29,345 bases of DNA from a virus, in IMG/VR virus record IMGVR_UViG_3300044535_003454, positions 1-29,345 of that record; one strand, 5' to 3'. Numbering within the stretch: position 1 is the first letter of the stretch; each line of letters begins with the position of its first letter. Under the pieces are notes generated by a model. That model was not told the origin of the DNA and made no database searches. It saw only the letters and a program-made list of their open reading frames with translations. Both the position numbers and the translations under genes were made by a program. Of the stretch, positions 2,447-28,666 are shown piece by piece.

Positions 2447-2836
2447 TTAGCGAATGCTAATTAATTTTGGTTTTTTCTCTTCTGGGATGTTTCTTACCAA
2501 ATTAACATACAGAATACCGTCCTCAAATCCAGCCGAATCTACCTCATGGTATTCGGGTAGTGAGAATGAACGAGTAAACTTACGAGCAGCAATACCCTTA
2601 TGTAGGTATTTCTTATCGTCAGCGTCTGGCTTTTCTGCTTTTATTGATAGGACGTTTTTTTCAGTAGTAATACTTATTTCATCCTTCTTAAATCCAGCCA
2701 CTGCAAACTCCATCACAATCTTATCATCGTCAATCCTGACAACGTTGTATGGTGGGTAGGTGTTTGCTGCTGGTGTTGTGCTAAAGAATTTGTCAATATC
2801 TAGACCAAATCCTGCAAATGGTGTTGTAATAACCAT
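2447..2836 (-). CDS. hsp20: Small heat-shock protein (Hsp20/alpha-crystallin)
   Basis: An ATP-independent holdase chaperone. The alpha-crystallin domain spans about residues 30-125: DDKIVMEFAVAGFKKDEISI at its start, VLSIKAEK in the middle, FTRSFSLPE, then GFEDGILYVNLVRNIPEE (the A-x-x-x-n-G-v-L type motif) and a C-terminal I-x-I-like ISIR tail. I start it at 2836, not at the ATG at 2845, because the earlier ATG lies inside the ribosome-binding site AAGGAG. This gives 129 residues, normal for phage Hsp20s. Such genes are well known in marine T4-like phages, where they may help virion assembly. The leader carries a candidate RNA thermometer. Confidence 0.95.
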   Translation of the reverse strand: MVITTPFAGFGLDIDKFFSTTPAANTYPPYNVVRIDDDKIVMEFAVAGFKKDEISITTEKNVLSIKAEKPDADDKKYLHKGIAARKFTRSFSLPEYHEVDSAGFEDGILYVNLVRNIPEEKKPKLISIR

Positions 2837-2845
2837 GTATATCAT

Positions 2846-2888
2846 CTCCTTATGTTAAGCGAGTTAATGCCCCCCAATTGGGCAGGCA
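2846..2888 (-). promoter_or_regulatory. Candidate ROSE-like RNA thermometer in the hsp20 leader
   Basis: Two hairpins fill the leader. The first (2888-2868) pairs UGCC with GGCA and CCC with GGG around an AAUU loop. The second (2863-2846) is CUC-G-CUUA / ACA / UAAG-GAG: seven pairs, an ACA loop and one unpaired G, with the whole AAGGAG ribosome-binding site in its 3' arm. The 5' arm contains UCGCU, matching the UYGCU signature of ROSE thermometers, and the bulged G (2860) sits opposite the SD guanines just as in ROSE. The start codon is 9 nt beyond the SD. Confidence 0.65.
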
Positions 2889-2893
2889 AATAT

Positions 2894-2904
2894 ATTATAT
2901 CATA
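2894..2904 (-). promoter_or_regulatory. Extended -10 promoter of hsp20
   Basis: The minus strand reads TATGATATAAT, identical to the arms of the 1745-1773 promoter and to the one at 22888-22898. Initiation about 7 nt downstream (near 2887) would place the first leader hairpin at the very 5' end of the transcript. Confidence 0.7.
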
Positions 2905-12016: not shown

Positions 12017-12298
12017 TTAGTCCATAGTCAAATTTTTCCAAGTTTTGGCCCATTGCTCTTTAGTTTTATGTTTAGAAAACTCTCTAGAAATTTTTCCACC
12101 TTCAAGAAAAACTCCTCCCCAAACCCCCCACTCTTTTTGAGAAACTCCAACAGCAAAACATTCTCTAGCTACTGGGCAGCCAGAGCATAATTTTTCAACG
12201 GCTGGACGCAAAGACAAGTCTTCTTCATATTTATCAAAAAATATATTTGTGTCATACCCAGAACAAGACCCTAAGTCTTTCCATTCTTGTCTATGCAT
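12017..12298 (-). CDS. whiB: WhiB-family iron-sulfur transcription regulator
   Basis: A 93-residue Wbl protein. The four cluster cysteines are C12, C38, C41 and C47 (C-x25-C-x2-C-x5-C), followed by the family's GVWGG turn (58-62) and a basic C-terminal segment for DNA contact. Wbl proteins bind a [4Fe-4S] cluster and the primary sigma factor in actinobacteria. Phage copies such as that of mycobacteriophage TM4 can dominantly interfere with the host WhiB. This is the best host marker in the window. It overlaps the upstream small gene by 8 nt. Confidence 0.93.
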   Translation of the reverse strand: MHRQEWKDLGSCSGYDTNIFFDKYEEDLSLRPAVEKLCSGCPVARECFAVGVSQKEWGVWGGVFLEGGKISREFSKHKTKEQWAKTWKNLTMD

Positions 12299-15322: not shown

Positions 15323-17236
15323 TTAATTAGGGTTTATCTCTTTGTATTTTTTGTAGAAAATATCTGCCCAAACGTCGTGAAACGAGCTTCCTGGGTGATG
15401 CCCGTCCTTAGCAAGAAGAGAGTACTTTTTTTGATAATACCTTTTTTTAGAATGATATTCTAGAACTTGAGCATTCATAAAATCTTCTTCATAAAAATTA
15501 AAACTTTCAAAGTCAGAAAGTAGGTCTAGAGAAAAATTGAGGTCATCCCCCGCAGCGTTTAGCTGCCCCCGCCAGCCTGGCACAACCGTTAGCCCATCGG
15601 CCTTAGTCCGTTTTTTATCAACTGGAAATTTAGTATCTATTTTTGAAAACTTTTTTGCCCAAGAAGCGGATATAAGAATAATCCCACTTGCCTTGCAAAA
15701 CATATCAAGATAAAAATAGCTTTTGTAGAATAAGGTGTTTATTGCATCAACATGTCTAAAAATATCTTTTTCGTCAACCCCCTGAAAAGATCTTTGCTCA
15801 CTAACATATTTAAGATCTCGACCAACATTTGGCAATAGAATAAAGATTGCTTTTGGGTTCCCAAAATCATGACAATATTTAAAGACTTGATCAATAGACT
15901 CTGTTATGCTATTTCCAGAGCGAGCAACATTAAAAAATGTGCCATCACCTAAATTATTATCCCTTTTTAGGTTTTGATAAAGCTTGTAAGACCAGGTGTC
16001 TTCTTTTTCTAATCCATCACCAGCAGTTATAGAGCATCCAGAAAATAGAAAATGGTCCTCCTTTAAATTTTTTTGAGGCAGGTCAGAGGCTGGGGCAATC
16101 GATCTTAAATGTTTAGATAGGCTTATTCTAAACCAATGGTTTCTAACGGTTTGCAAACTAATATTCTTTGGTGCCATTTCTTCATGATGATAAATTAATG
16201 ATAAGTCAAGGTCTTCTTCATCATCAGAATGTTTTTGATATAGCCCTTTTGCATTTATAAAAGGATTTTCTCCATATTTTTGATTATGAATTTCTAGCTG
16301 TTGTTTAAAAGAATACTCTGCTCCTATTTCAGCATAAAAATCTTCAATTTTTCTTGATAAATTTTCTAAAGAGACAAAAGAATTTTTTCCATACAAGATT
16401 AAATTGCATACCTCTAAAAACATTACCTTATCATCAAAGGCAGTTTTTTTAATTGGCTTATTGTCAAAAACTACCCACCACCTAGGATTTTTAATGTCTA
16501 AATCTTTTTCGTTTTGCTTTTTAAAAAGAACCATATTGTTAAAGGTGGGAGAGGCAACATCATACCCATTACAATAGGTAACAACGGATAGCTCTAAGTT
16601 TCCAAAGGCCTCATTATGATAGTCTGGAAGCTGTATATCTTTTAAATATTCTGTAGAGGCAAATAAAAAATTTCCAAAAACGTAATAATTGTTAAAATAT
16701 TTTTGATTAATAAGCCTGTTTTTTGTTAGCCATCCAACCTCATCAATATATGGATTATGGCCCTCTGTTAAAGAATAGTCATCAAACTGATAATAATAAT
16801 TATTAAAAAGATAAATGTCTGCAATTATGTTATAGTTAGGAGCTTTGCTTTTTTCAACTAAGTCATTAGAAATTATTGTTTTTTTATTTTTTAACATTAA
16901 CTTTCTAAGATCAGAAATTAAAATTTTGTCCCAGCCTTTTAAAAATTTTGTATATGAGTCTATTTGCAAAAAGTAGTTTTCATTTTCAACCATCTTACTT
17001 AGCTTAGCCCTAATTTTAAGTGTCCCAGGAGTTTTGGCATTGTCTAAATTTGAAGAGTATTGAATAGTTTTTATTTTATTTTTAATTTCAGATAAGTCTG
17101 GATTTTTTTCATATTGTAAAGAAATTGCAAAAGAAATATTTTCTGGGGCCTCTGCATTATCCAAGCATTCCCTAATTGTGTCTAAAAGATTTGGATTTTC
17201 TAATGCTGTAATTGATACCAAGATTTTTTCAGACAC
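15323..17236 (-). CDS. Fusion of GT60-like glycosyltransferase and SGNH hydrolase
   Basis: A 637-residue two-domain protein. Residues 1-240 match the GT60/GlcNAc-transferase pattern: ILVSITALENPNLLDTIREC at the start, YFLQIDSYTKFLKGWDKIL (88-106, with IDS at the metal site) and FGNLELSVVTYCNGYDVASP (211-230). After a linker, residues 395-637 form an SGNH hydrolase: S402 in GCSITAGDG, G441/N442, N470 in LLPNVGRD, and D611/H614 in DGHHPG. GT60 enzymes add GlcNAc to hydroxyproline; SGNH enzymes add or remove acyl groups. Coupling both suggests a transferred sugar that is then acylated or deacylated. Confidence 0.75.
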   Translation of the reverse strand: MSEKILVSITALENPNLLDTIRECLDNAEAPENISFAISLQYEKNPDLSEIKNKIKTIQYSSNLDNAKTPGTLKIRAKLSKMVENENYFLQIDSYTKFLKGWDKILISDLRKLMLKNKKTIISNDLVEKSKAPNYNIIADIYLFNNYYYQFDDYSLTEGHNPYIDEVGWLTKNRLINQKYFNNYYVFGNFLFASTEYLKDIQLPDYHNEAFGNLELSVVTYCNGYDVASPTFNNMVLFKKQNEKDLDIKNPRWWVVFDNKPIKKTAFDDKVMFLEVCNLILYGKNSFVSLENLSRKIEDFYAEIGAEYSFKQQLEIHNQKYGENPFINAKGLYQKHSDDEEDLDLSLIYHHEEMAPKNISLQTVRNHWFRISLSKHLRSIAPASDLPQKNLKEDHFLFSGCSITAGDGLEKEDTWSYKLYQNLKRDNNLGDGTFFNVARSGNSITESIDQVFKYCHDFGNPKAIFILLPNVGRDLKYVSEQRSFQGVDEKDIFRHVDAINTLFYKSYFYLDMFCKASGIILISASWAKKFSKIDTKFPVDKKRTKADGLTVVPGWRGQLNAAGDDLNFSLDLLSDFESFNFYEEDFMNAQVLEYHSKKRYYQKKYSLLAKDGHHPGSSFHDVWADIFYKKYKEINPN

Positions 17237-17886
17237 TAAACTTCTCCAGTAGAATCAAACATATCTTTTCTATTGTGATACCAATGTGGCATAGAGTACC
17301 TAAACCCATCAGTTATTGGGTGTACCTCATGAATGTATAAAAAGTTTGATGGGAAAAATATAATGCTTCCCGATTCAGGCTTAATCTTTACCTTAGAGTT
17401 TACAAACTCAATCTCTCCGCCATCATAATTATCATTAAGATACATAACGCTAGATAAAACACGGCTGCTTACGCCCTGGTCTTGGTGTGCTGGCAAATGC
17501 CCAGTTTTTCCATATCTTAGCAAATGAATACTTTGTTCACGATTCTTAATGTTTTGCCCAGCATATGGATATAACATCTTAGAGTAGTGATCAAATGCAG
17601 AATCTAGAGCATCGTACATGGCTTGTGTAGCTTCAAACATTTCTTTGTAGTAATAGTCATTAGGGCTTATGTGTATTGGCTCTGGGAAAAATTTTTGATC
17701 ATTAAAGTGTAAATCTCCATAGGTCCATGGCGTCCAGCCCTCTACATCGGTAGGATTTTTCCCATGCTCACCTGCCAAAAATCTTTCATCAACTTCGTTT
17801 ACAAGATCTATAATTCTTTGAGGACTTTTAATTACATTTTTATAACAAACAAGACCTAGGTCTAAAACATCATAGGATAGCGACAT
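17236..17886 (-). CDS. 2OG-Fe(II) oxygenase, prolyl-4-hydroxylase-like
   Basis: A 216-residue dioxygenase with an intact site: H134-Q-D136 (LPAHQDQ), H186 (YIHEVHP) and R196 (GFRYSMP). The VMYLNDNYDGGEIEF core and SIIFFPSN strand are as in P4H relatives. The N-terminal 60 residues form a helical cap. It directly precedes the GT60-SGNH fusion, sharing a base (stop/start overlap), so the two are probably made together and may act on one substrate. Confidence 0.85.
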   Translation of the reverse strand: MSLSYDVLDLGLVCYKNVIKSPQRIIDLVNEVDERFLAGEHGKNPTDVEGWTPWTYGDLHFNDQKFFPEPIHISPNDYYYKEMFEATQAMYDALDSAFDHYSKMLYPYAGQNIKNREQSIHLLRYGKTGHLPAHQDQGVSSRVLSSVMYLNDNYDGGEIEFVNSKVKIKPESGSIIFFPSNFLYIHEVHPITDGFRYSMPHWYHNRKDMFDSTGEV

Positions 17887-17889
17887 TTT

Positions 17890-18498
17890 TTATTCTCCGT
17901 CTAAAATTGCGTATGGGTGACTCATTGCTTTCCACTCACGAGTTTCTTCTTTAGAGTGAAAGTCTGGATCAGCATGGTCAGGAATAGATGTGTGCATGTA
18001 AAGAGCTGTTTGTCTTTGCCCAGAAGTAATCTCTGTAATACCGTGGATATATTCTGAGCCAGCACTTGGGAAAAACACTGCAGAATATTTTTTTGGTTTG
18101 TATTCAAAGTTTTGGTTTGGGAAATATATAAGTCCCCCCTCATATTCTGATGGGTCGCTTAAGTAAATAATTGTGCTAAACTCAATAAATGATTCTGGAT
18201 CTTGAGCATCTAGGTGAAGACCACCTCTGCTTCCTGGTGTCCACAAAGATCCAAAAGACTTAAACACATAAATAGGATTTACAAAGCCATTTTGTTCTTG
18301 ATGAACAGTGTTTGATTTGTGACCATACTTAATTAATAAATCCATTACACGTTTGTTATATGGAAAGGCTGTTCCTCCAAACCTTTCTTTATAATATTCT
18401 GGGTATGGGTTGATTTCAGATGGAAACAACTGCTCTTCGATTAAGACTGAAGCATCTTCTGGCGTAATAAAATTATCAACAATATGGATTCTGTGCAT
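17890..18498 (-). CDS. 2OG-Fe(II) oxygenase, prolyl-4-hydroxylase-like
   Basis: A 202-residue dioxygenase with H95-L-D97 (GLHLDAQD), H152 (YIHGITE) and R162 (GQRQTAL). IIYLSDPSEYEGGLIYFPNQ is the family core. The start is set at 18498, which has AAGGAG in front of it; the ATG at 18546 lies in the upstream gene. A promoter on the end of the GT60-like gene can express it separately. It sits 3 nt before the next oxygenase, so the pair is co-translated. Confidence 0.85.
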   Translation of the reverse strand: MHRIHIVDNFITPEDASVLIEEQLFPSEINPYPEYYKERFGGTAFPYNKRVMDLLIKYGHKSNTVHQEQNGFVNPIYVFKSFGSLWTPGSRGGLHLDAQDPESFIEFSTIIYLSDPSEYEGGLIYFPNQNFEYKPKKYSAVFFPSAGSEYIHGITEITSGQRQTALYMHTSIPDHADPDFHSKEETREWKAMSHPYAILDGE

Positions 18499-18514
18499 TT
18501 TTCTCCTTAATAAA

Positions 18515-18523
18515 ATTATATCA
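18515..18523 (-). promoter_or_regulatory. Extended -10 built on the stop codon of the upstream gene
   Basis: The minus strand reads TGATATAAT, where TGA (18523-18521) is the stop codon of the gene at 18521-19339. Initiation near 18508 would give a 10-nt leader with AAGGAG before the ATG at 18498. Confidence 0.6.
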
Positions 18524-19339
18524 GAAAATGCCATTGACAGGATCAATAAATTTTCTAGAATCTATATCGTGAAAGCTTAATGAGGTATGGCTATAAGATA
18601 CGTCATTATTTTCATACGGAAGCCTGTGAATTGTTTCAGCATTTAGACCATAATGAGCTAGGAATTCTTTGGGTGCTTTTTTTAACTCATCTACAACAAG
18701 ATTGTAATTATGATCTAAAGAAAAAATAGTATACTTATTTTCTAAAGTTCTGGCTAATAGGTCTGTATAAAAATCTGATGGGGCAGAAAAAATTTTTACT
18801 CCTGTTTTAAATAAAGCTAAGGATGCTGCCTCTTCTTCTCCGTGATACTTTACGTCAATTGGGAACGCCTGCCTTAAAAAATCGGTCTTGCCAAAAACAA
18901 AATTTCTATCTATAAAGTTAGACTCTAAAAAATCCAAAGAAAATACTTTGTTTTGCTGGAGAAAGAAAAGATTTTTTTGAATTAATTTTAGCTGGCCAGC
19001 TCCAGAAACAACAGCTTTTTTGTCTTGCAAAAAATTAATTAAACACTTATCCCAATCTTTAGAAACAATTACATCATCAGAGATAAGCAAAAAATATCTA
19101 AAAGAAGACTGGCTAAGCTCAGAAGTTTTATACGATATAGGGCTAACAAGACTGTCCCAATAAACATGTTCGTATTTTACTTTATTTAAATATTTTTTAT
19201 CTTCAAAAAGGTTATCTCTTTTTAGATTGTGCTGATCTTTTATTGATATAAAAATATCGCTAACAGTGTTTTCAATTAAAGAATCTACAACCCTTTTTAA
19301 ATTTTTATTTTTGTAAGAATAGATCAGGGCGTGAATCAT
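18521..19339 (-). CDS. GT60-like glycosyltransferase
   Basis: A 272-residue single-domain protein. MIHALIYSYKNKNLKRVVDS matches the start of GT60/GlcNAc-transferase domains. SFRYFLLISDDVIVSKDWDKCL (about 78-100) corresponds to their YYLQIDSHMRFVPGWD, with SDD at the metal site. KYHGEEEAASLALFKTGVKIFSAP (about 166-189) matches the GEE-x-A-x-x-L-x-x-x-G-x-x-I-F-S-P segment. It is more distant from the fusion protein at 15323 than a recent duplicate would be. It sits upstream of two P4H-like oxygenases. Confidence 0.65.
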   Translation of the reverse strand: MIHALIYSYKNKNLKRVVDSLIENTVSDIFISIKDQHNLKRDNLFEDKKYLNKVKYEHVYWDSLVSPISYKTSELSQSSFRYFLLISDDVIVSKDWDKCLINFLQDKKAVVSGAGQLKLIQKNLFFLQQNKVFSLDFLESNFIDRNFVFGKTDFLRQAFPIDVKYHGEEEAASLALFKTGVKIFSAPSDFYTDLLARTLENKYTIFSLDHNYNLVVDELKKAPKEFLAHYGLNAETIHRLPYENNDVSYSHTSLSFHDIDSRKFIDPVNGIF

Positions 19340-26495: not shown

Positions 26496-26575
26496 TAGTA
26501 TAAAAAATCTTTTTTTCTATTTAAAACTTTTTTAATTTTTCTTTTTAAGAAAAACAGTTTAATTTTTTTAAACAT
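26495..26575 (-). CDS. 26-codon basic small ORF between the oxygenase and carbamoyltransferase
   Basis: An ATG at 26575 opens a 26-codon frame ending at TAA 26497-26495. It starts MFKKIKLFFLKRKIKK and contains 9 Lys, 2 Arg and 1 Asp. AAGGGG lies 4 nt before the ATG. The start overlaps the end of the upstream gene by 8 nt, and its stop overlaps the next ATG as TAATG, so all three would be translationally coupled. Hydrophobic and basic residues alternate as in an amphipathic helix. It may be a leader that feeds ribosomes to the carbamoyltransferase, or an AT-rich chance frame. Confidence 0.45.
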   Translation of the reverse strand: MFKKIKLFFLKRKIKKVLNRKKDFLY

Positions 26576-27158
26576 TGTACCCCTTTTTGATTTCCCAGTC
26601 GCCCAAAGCTTCGTTAATTACTGTATCTGGGTCATAGTCTGTGGTCCATTCGTTAGGATGAACATCAGAAAAAAATCCAACGATTGTAGATCTATTACCA
26701 GAAATTACAGGACGAACCTCGTGAATGGTGTCCTTAGATGGGAAAAGAACCAGGTCTCCTGCCTTTGGCTTATAGCTAATATTGTGTTCAGGAAAATCAA
26801 TCTCTCCGCCTTCGTAATCACTTGTTAAATAAATTATTGAGCTATAGGTAATATATCCAGAGTTATATGTATCTAGATGTGGGCCAGCTCCCTTCCCAAT
26901 GTCCCAAACACCCAACTGACTATCAACACAATAAATTTCATTAGGATTATTAAAGCTTTTGGCAATTTGTTTTGCGACTTTGTAAGCCTGCTTAGATATA
27001 GCTGCAAAAGATCCTACAATATATAAAGGAACAACTTTAACTGATGGGTTATCTTGCCAGGGCTCTGTTGGCTTTGATTCTAAAAAAAATAAAGCTTCTT
27101 TTATGTCTTTACTGCTAATAAAGTTATGGATTATTTTAATATCGTCTTTATGTGTCAT
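26568..27158 (-). CDS. 2OG-Fe(II) oxygenase, prolyl-4-hydroxylase-like
   Basis: A 196-residue dioxygenase. H94-L-D96 (GPHLDTY), H146 (TIHEVRP) and R156 (GNRSTIV) complete the site. The positions are the same as in the protein at 27540, so the two are paralogues. The start is at 27158: it follows TATAAT by 6 nt, while the upstream in-frame ATG at 27206 lies inside tRNA-Asn. A carbamoyltransferase follows through the small ORF at 26495. Confidence 0.88.
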   Translation of the reverse strand: MTHKDDIKIIHNFISSKDIKEALFFLESKPTEPWQDNPSVKVVPLYIVGSFAAISKQAYKVAKQIAKSFNNPNEIYCVDSQLGVWDIGKGAGPHLDTYNSGYITYSSIIYLTSDYEGGEIDFPEHNISYKPKAGDLVLFPSKDTIHEVRPVISGNRSTIVGFFSDVHPNEWTTDYDPDTVINEALGDWEIKKGYNV

Positions 27159-27164
27159 GGTTAC

Positions 27165-27170
27165 ATTATA
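27165..27170 (-). promoter_or_regulatory. -10 of the leaderless oxygenase gene
   Basis: TATAAT on the minus strand lies 6 nt before the ATG at 27158. It lacks the TG extension. The -35 region would fall within the tRNA-Asn gene. Confidence 0.6.
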
Positions 27171-27182
27171 CCTTATCGCCTG

Positions 27183-27254
27183 CTCCCCCTCGTGGATTCG
27201 AACCACGGACCTTAGAGTTAACAGCTCTCTGCTCTGCCGCTGAGCTAAGGGGGA
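27183..27254 (-). tRNA. tRNA-Asn(GUU)
   Basis: The acceptor TCCCCCT/AGGGGGA is fully paired. The anticodon loop CTGTTAA (anticodon GTT) is closed by AGAG/CTCT with a mismatched outer pair, and the T arm CGTGG/CCACG encloses TTCGAAT. The discriminator is G. No CCA is encoded. It follows the small gene at 27260 on the same strand. Confidence 0.92.
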
Positions 27255-27539: not shown

Positions 27540-28124
27540 TCAATTTTTATTTATTTGACTGTAGTAGTCTGCCGAGCCAAAAATACTAATTTCAGGCTTT
27601 GGATAAGTTTCCCAAGTATCTGGTGAAGCTTTAGTATAGAATCCCACAATAGTAGACCTGCTACCCGAAATAACAGGGCTGACTTCATGCCAGTAGCCTT
27701 TAGATGGGAAAAACAAAAGATCTCCAGCCTTAGGCTTTAAAGCAATATCAAGTTCTGGAAACATTATTTTTCCACCAGAATAATTATCATTTAAGTATAT
27801 TACTGAACTGAACTGTGTAAAGCTTGCCCCATAAGTATCATCGTGAATTTCAAGACCTTCTCCATTTTTCCAAGTTCCAAGATGACTTGTTAGACAATAA
27901 AGCTCTTCTTTTACATTAAATTTTTCTTTAATTATCTCAGAAGTCTTGTAAGCATATTTTGTAACAAGTGCAGACACTTCAAGTATTGTATTTGAAACAA
28001 TTTCTGTTGCTGGATTTTCTTCCCAAACAGTTTTTGGCTTAGACTCTAAAATTTTTAGTGCTTCATCAATTTCATTTTTATTTAAAAAATTTTTTACAAC
28101 AATGACGTTTTCTTTTTTTGCCAT
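27540..28124 (-). CDS. 2OG-Fe(II) oxygenase, prolyl-4-hydroxylase-like
   Basis: A 194-residue paralogue of the protein at 26568. H94-D-D96 (EIHDDTY), H146 (YWHEVSP) and R156 (GSRSTIV) are intact and at identical positions. KPKAGDLLFFPSKG and VIYLNDNYSGGKIMFPE are shared almost word for word, so duplication is the likely origin, with tRNA-Asn and a small gene now between the copies. AGGAA is the only ribosome-binding hint. It follows the Ntn hydrolase gene by 14 nt. Confidence 0.87.
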   Translation of the reverse strand: MAKKENVIVVKNFLNKNEIDEALKILESKPKTVWEENPATEIVSNTILEVSALVTKYAYKTSEIIKEKFNVKEELYCLTSHLGTWKNGEGLEIHDDTYGASFTQFSSVIYLNDNYSGGKIMFPELDIALKPKAGDLLFFPSKGYWHEVSPVISGSRSTIVGFYTKASPDTWETYPKPEISIFGSADYYSQINKN

Positions 28125-28138
28125 AATAAAAATATTTC

Positions 28139-28666
28139 CTAGGTGCTTAGAATGTCAACTGTACCTGAGCAAGTTGGAGAAAACTTTATAGCTGCCTTGA
28201 CTGCTCCCTCTACAATTTTTTCAGGGTTGTCAAAAGACGCAACCCCATATAAATAACCTAAAGCAAAATGGAAACCAGATCCTATAGAAAGGTATCCCAA
28301 AGAGTAATCATTTAAAGACATGTCAGAAGAGCTGTGCTCATAGAGTCTGTCTTTAATTCCAATAACCATTTCTAGCTCTGAATCTTTTGCCGTATCTATC
28401 CACCATTCGTCATAGAACTCTCTTAAATATTTTAAAAATGTGGTGTGCATAAAAACATCTAGATCTTCATCATCATGTGGTTTTGGTGGATTAAACGTGT
28501 AGGCTAATCTCTGCCCCTCCATAGTTCCAGCAAAGCCAATTACATATGGGCCAAAGCGATGGACTTTTGGTTTTGTTAAATGCATGATGCTATCGTCAGT
28601 AGAAGCTCCACGCTCCCCAGCAATATATACTTTATTATTAGCCTTTAGGCCAACTATGCATGTCAT
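28139..28666 (-). CDS. Ntn-hydrolase, HslV/proteasome-beta-like
   Basis: A 175-residue protein beginning M-TCIVGLKANNKVYIAGERG, parallel to HslV (T-TIVSV...VVIAGDGQ). After Met removal Thr1 would be the nucleophile. Lys33 (TKPKV) falls at the same number as in HslV; the usual Asp17 is Glu. VIGFAGTMEGQRLAY corresponds to HslV's GFAG helix. No ATPase partner is in the window. It might use a host ATPase or act on small peptides or amides. It is driven by the strongest-looking promoter here, with AGGGG before the ATG. Confidence 0.8.
   Translation of the reverse strand: MTCIVGLKANNKVYIAGERGASTDDSIMHLTKPKVHRFGPYVIGFAGTMEGQRLAYTFNPPKPHDDEDLDVFMHTTFLKYLREFYDEWWIDTAKDSELEMVIGIKDRLYEHSSSDMSLNDYSLGYLSIGSGFHFALGYLYGVASFDNPEKIVEGAVKAAIKFSPTCSGTVDILST

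Follow-up and report, generated by a model that had tools for sequence, protein, structure and literature searches.

An important question raised by this locus is whether the leader of a phage small heat-shock gene can act as an RNA thermometer, and how widely such leaders are shared. The window, by which we mean the entire 29,345-base virus record analysed, encodes on its minus strand (2447–2836) a small heat-shock protein of the IbpA type, 129 amino acids long and identified by PF00011 (E = 5e-20), phrog_432 (Hsp20, E = 2.5e-37) and alignment. The start codon of this hsp20 gene is the ATG at 2836–2834, nine bases downstream of the Shine–Dalgarno (SD) sequence; an in-frame ATG at 2845 is an unlikely start, since it directly abuts the SD. 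A WhiB gene is also present (12017–12298; PF02467, E = 2.7e-11, above the family cut-off), and judged by this gene an actinobacterial host is plausible and indeed probable. Given that likely host, a weak proteasome-subunit match at 28139–28666 is worth noting (PF00227, 19.8 bits versus a cut-off of 22.4). We also note ORFs resembling 2OG-Fe(II) oxygenases at 1780–2358, 17236–17886, 17890–18546, 26568–27206 and 27540–28124 (Pfam was applied to the first only), which are surrounded by many glycan-type genes.

The leader had been described from the letters of the sequence as two hairpins, the second of which buries the SD, and this description of the minus strand (2834–2904) proved accurate to the base. 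An extended −10 promoter element, TGATATAAT, is read at 2894–2902 (minus strand), and most close relatives have TGnTATAAT in this position; no good −35 was found. Transcription is predicted to start at about 2889–2886, just 5′ of hairpin I, and from the position of the −10 site here and in the relatives we infer that both hairpins lie within the hsp20 leader. Hairpin I (2868–2888, minus strand) is a GC-rich element supported by predicted folding and covariation, UGCCU-G-CCC/AAUU/GGG-GGGCA, in which 2888–2884 and 2882–2880 are predicted to pair with 2875–2868, leaving G2883 unpaired. Four bases separate it from hairpin II (2846–2863, minus strand), the putative thermosensing hairpin, CUC-G-CUUA/ACA/UAAG-GAG, which is supported by predicted folding and conservation. 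Its outer pairs join C2863, U2862 and C2861 to G2848, A2847 and G2846, its inner pairs join C2859, U2858, U2857 and A2856 to U2852, A2851, A2850 and G2849, and its loop is A2855–A2853. The SD, AAGGAG (2846–2851, minus strand), is wholly paired in this predicted fold.

Can the leader be interpreted as a ROSE element? ROSE-like thermometers are defined by U(U/C)GCU, an unpaired G, an SD shut in the last hairpin, a stable hairpin before it and a small heat-shock protein (sHsp) gene (PMC3669281, PMC11342760). Here, UCGCU at 2858–2862 on the minus strand supplies the signature, lying opposite AGGA and pairing imperfectly with the SD, and G2860 is left unpaired in the predicted anti-SD strand. The predicted fold and the covariation agree in closing the SD in the 3′-proximal hairpin with a stable hairpin before it, and the gene that follows is an sHsp gene by PF00011. 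A fourU thermometer was rejected, as the anti-SD is CUCGCUU and not four consecutive U. The comparison with Rfam ROSE models that had been proposed together with the original prediction came out in its favour as to rank: among 4,227 families, ROSE_3 (RF02523; 28.6 bits, E = 3.1e-4) and ROSE_2 (RF01832; 19.7 bits, E = 0.065) are the top two matches to the window leader. As to score it did not, both values lying under the curated gathering cut-offs of 43 and 65 bits. At gathering level, only tRNAs were matched in the window and 20 relatives. ROSE_3 is also the best Rfam match for the leaders of phages Melnitz (34.1 bits) and S-N03 (31.5 bits), and a model trained only on phage leaders picks up the E. 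coli ibpB leader, ACUCGCUUCUUAGAAGGAG. The phage leader has its terminal hairpin in common with ROSE_3 and ROSE_2 and differs from them in its score. We file the leader as ROSE-like, as first proposed, because the signature, the unpaired G, the SD pairing, the GC-rich hairpin and the position before an sHsp gene coincide with best matches to ROSE families and with the conservation and covariation described below; on sequence grounds, the assignment by structure and motif is well supported, outside membership of the Rfam ROSE families.

The closest known architecture is that of the two-hairpin ibpA thermometers of Pseudomonas, which have been tested experimentally (PMC3669281). These short elements likewise have a leader of ∼60 nt, a stable GC-rich hairpin I, and a short hairpin II in which U(U/C)GCU pairs with the SD and the core is flanked by G-C pairs, with an sHsp gene downstream. 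They differ in serving bacterial heat-shock genes, whereas the phage genes have sigma-70-like or T4-late-like sites and other hairpin I sequences. The E. coli ROSE elements are also close, with UUCUCGCU..AGGAG in ibpA and ACUCGCUU..AAGGAG in ibpB, but the ibpA leader has additional upstream hairpins and belongs to a host operon.

The original prediction named a lack of conservation of the signature–SD pairing in homologous leaders as evidence that would count against it. We compared 512 viral hsp20 loci, drawn from a first protein search, from searches seeded by P-SSM2, HTVC115P and Mosig, and from loci selected by the motif. The pairing proved to be conserved, and the prediction passes this check: the motif is found at the SD in 448 of these loci or, counting distinct leaders, in 342 of 381. 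The motif itself served to choose some of the 512, and the 448 include a few AGGAA cases that call for the same caution in anchoring as GGAGGA SDs. When only protein-seeded leaders are counted, U-Y-G-C..GGA is present in 236 of 241 distinct leaders. In the first protein search (64 distinct leaders, with protein identity down to 47%), all readable relatives and the window have [CU]U[CU]GCU..GGAG directly at the hsp20 SD. The motif appears in 1.1% of shuffled upstream sequences and, for other genes, in 22 of 1,172 SD-led ORFs (1.9% or less), several of the 22 being hsp20-operon genes themselves. Within the window, ACTCGCTTAAN{0,5}AGGAG occurs once, with 0.00 occurrences expected; because of this and of the conservation across hundreds of phage leaders, the match is not due to chance. 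The fold energy of the window leader would, alone, have allowed a chance hairpin at a strong SD: at −15.4 kcal/mol (z −1.27, 25 of 200 shuffles equally stable) it is unremarkable, and we discarded it as proof of the element. Conservation refutes such a hairpin, with covariation and gene association adding to the case, and we consider its probability negligible.

The loci that lack the motif are informative. In 54 of the 64, hsp20 follows a small ORF (∼75 amino acids) whose own leader has the element, and such second genes of element-led operons are not counter-evidence; in the small-ORF family as a whole, the element is present in 52 of 52 distinct leaders. The remaining ten consist of eight re-registered hairpins, a variant in phage PA5oct (AUCUU-G-C/G-GAGAU) and one degenerate SD (L240). 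The eight share AUAAC-G-CU-UAACGG-AG-GUUAU, by inspection a re-registered hairpin with an unpaired G and a CU/AG step. This group (L340, L344–L349 and L369) comes from marine phages and provides a natural test of which features matter. A third type of operon, dnaK–hsp20, is found on one contig (L186:3291–5698, minus strand), with the element before dnaK; ClpS-like and heme-oxygenase-like ORFs, recognized by eye, come after the operon. Taken with the variants, the small-ORF operons and the dnaK–hsp20 operon indicate that the element goes with whichever gene comes first in the chaperone operon. On the sequences examined, the element is a general feature of phage hsp20 operons. The element is present in this probably actinobacterial phage as first suggested, but it is not peculiar to such a phage.

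The small upstream proteins (MLNNINTAIDSFQGIKTKFVETYVKNEELKKPL...; ∼75 amino acids) are probably helical and form a two-gene operon with hsp20 under the same ROSE-like leader at L100, L150, L155, L159, L343, L352 and about 90 other loci. They gave no significant Pfam or PHROG match and were not found in the isolated phages; a likeness to phasins seen by eye is unsupported by Pfam or PHROG. One contig, IMGVR_UViG_3300042445_001212 (L004 and L024), carries two diverged hsp20 genes with one copy of the element each. In one scan of cellular genomes bearing on a cellular origin, six weak relatives were found (best identity 37%), with the element absent at the hsp20 SD.

An approach free of protein information leads to the same gene. 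The pattern ACTCGCTTAAN{0,5}AGGAGN{5,12}ATG was run over 2.9 million viral contigs and matched at least 120 stretches. Among the 120 matches listed, 108 lead hsp20 operons, with hsp20 as the first gene in 94 and as a later gene within 3 kb in 14; five are cut by the contig end and seven are without hsp20. Among these seven are several small ORFs resembling those found in the operons, and two others, L091 (AhpC-like) and L101, may be chance matches to the motif.

The element or a variant of it is present in all 20 isolated phages read. It is found in P-SSM4, P-SSM2, S-PM2, S-N03, HTVC115P, Mosig (UUUGCU) and Melnitz (CUUGCU), as well as in S-H34, S-SM1, P-RSM4, S-CAM3, S-RIM44, ACG-2014d, ACG-2014f, S-RIM2, S-SSM6a, Syn10 and P-HM2, with variants in S-CAM4 and PA5oct. 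P-HM2 was considered as a phage without the element, a reading rejected on finding the element with an annotated start codon upstream of the likely true one. The GenBank entries for these genes vary: the annotated hsp20 ORF of P-HM2 (L545) begins upstream of the RNA element, that of S-CAM3 (L543) begins only after the SD-led ATG, and Syn10 (L539) has no hsp20 annotation at the match. Promoter types also vary around the same RNA element, with TTAAATA (T4-late-like) just before hairpin I in the marine cyanophages L082, L087, L541, L542 and L547 and TGnTATAAT at this place in freshwater relatives. In many cyanophages regA lies just upstream of hsp20 (it adjoins the gene in S-CAM4, S-PM2, S-RIM44, P-HM2 and ACG-2014f), so that the hairpin might be the site of another translational repressor, such as phage RegA. 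The window, HTVC115P and PA5oct-type phages, however, have the element although regA does not lie next to it, and we consider a repressor site of this kind very improbable.

The original prediction also looked to related phages for compensatory changes, and these are strong in hairpin I and limited in hairpin II. In an alignment of 55 distinct leaders, which was fitted to the structure model and so somewhat favours it, all five outer pairs of hairpin I show compensatory changes. The whole structure has 42 double-changed cells versus 9.6 in shuffles, none of 500 shuffles reaches 42, and slid registers have almost no double-changed cells. Of the 374 distinct regions that precede the anti-SD (mean z −2.1), 371 are predicted to form a hairpin, with 319 different sequences. 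Hairpin II varies little and covaries to a limited extent because the SD is constrained. Its variation consists of C/U alternation in the anti-SD, a double change from U-A to A-U common to L012, L035 and L036, and, in S-CAM4 (GUC-G-CU..AG-GAC), a G-C that is a real double change of the outer pair. Outer-pair U-A changes in the anchored count were discarded, as GGAGGA SDs had been anchored one unit late, and only the S-CAM4 G-C was kept.

We regard the hsp20 leader, with a probability of roughly 0.8, as a short ROSE-like RNA thermometer built of two hairpins. Transcription would begin just before hairpin I, which would stay folded and may cap or insulate the leader. Hairpin II, weakened by the unpaired G2860, would keep the hsp20 SD closed at normal temperature and, as the temperature rises, would open by degrees to let ribosomes bind and the chaperone be made. 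The same element would act before the first gene of each operon type, whether hsp20 alone, small ORF–hsp20 or dnaK–hsp20. In this way phages would probably hold back the chaperone until heat or damaged protein lifts the block. The melting, the control at translation and the benefit, a supply of chaperone during infection under heat or proteotoxic load, are drawn from these features and from known systems.

Calculated folding fits this mechanism in direction. At 37 °C the SD is unpaired with a median probability of 0.23 in phage hsp20 and 0.54 in other genes (p ≈ 1e-18); for the window, a nearest-neighbour model puts this probability at 0.01 at 20 °C, rising to 0.06 at 42 °C and to 0.35 at 60 °C. 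The predicted opening is shallow and neither proves nor refutes thermosensing, because this calculation gives an equally shallow response for the E. coli ibpA leader, a proven thermometer (0.08 at 20 °C, 0.18 at 42 °C); temperature sensing by the phage leader is putative. Leader structure tunes many phage genes, and the weak predicted melting, together with the small temperature changes seen by aquatic hosts, would also suit a constitutive hairpin that merely keeps hsp20 translation low or times it to infection, without sensing temperature. Such a hairpin would not explain why hundreds of diverged leaders have U(U/C)GCU with an unpaired G, or why the element is confined to chaperone operons, and we judge it unlikely.

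The signal may also be misfolded protein and not temperature itself. In E. coli, IbpA acts through the leader as a repressor of its own gene and of ibpB, a role for which its Arg93 is essential (PMC10474464). By analogy, phage Hsp20 might bind its own ROSE leader and repress translation until aggregated proteins draw it away, acting instead of or besides melting. The residue aligned with IbpA R93 is an arginine in the window Hsp20 and in 377 of the 379 distinct phage Hsp20s that could be aligned, and a glutamine in E. coli IbpB; the element also recurs before operons that hold other genes. This arginine may, however, just mark IbpA-type sHsps, and RNA binding by phage Hsp20 is putative. Titration is also compatible with melting, both acting on one leader in E. 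coli. We give titration a prospect not far short of even, and autorepression by the chaperone may be a serious companion mechanism to the thermometer on the same RNA.

Phage hsp20 genes have been catalogued for years in cyanophages and others, and in one cyanophage sHsp study the text examined mentions neither leaders nor thermometers nor temperature. In the open-access literature, we found no description of ROSE elements in phages or of RNA thermometers joined with phage hsp20. The phage thermometers found there comprise that of lambda cIII and two of the fourU class (PMC11182007). These elements, in lambda cIII, SPbeta blyA (fourU) and a sigma70 gene of a gut Caudoviricetes phage (fourU), are likewise phage-borne and translational, but they belong to other structural classes, are single cases and do not control heat-shock genes (PMC11182007, PMC10586365). 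The kind of thermometer is known; its presence across phage chaperone operons appears to be new.

We propose tentatively, as possible and not as probable, that aquatic tailed phages of unrelated bacteria (cyanobacteria, Pelagibacter, Methylophilales and probably actinobacteria) have in common a single mobile chaperone module. It would consist of an sHsp of the IbpA type, in some cases joined by the small helical protein or DnaK, and would be governed by a ROSE-like RNA that responds to heat as well as to the level of free chaperone. If this is true, no viral RNA thermometer known would be more widespread, and phages would have a proteostasis sensor of their own. The conserved leader gives a concrete rule for chaperone timing in phages that can be grown, such as P-SSM2, S-PM2, HTVC115P and PA5oct. 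RNA thermometers, known in phages from a few isolated cases, would become the property of a whole family, and ROSE elements would be seen at work beyond their known bacterial hosts. What part temperature and protein damage play when aquatic hosts are infected would become testable.
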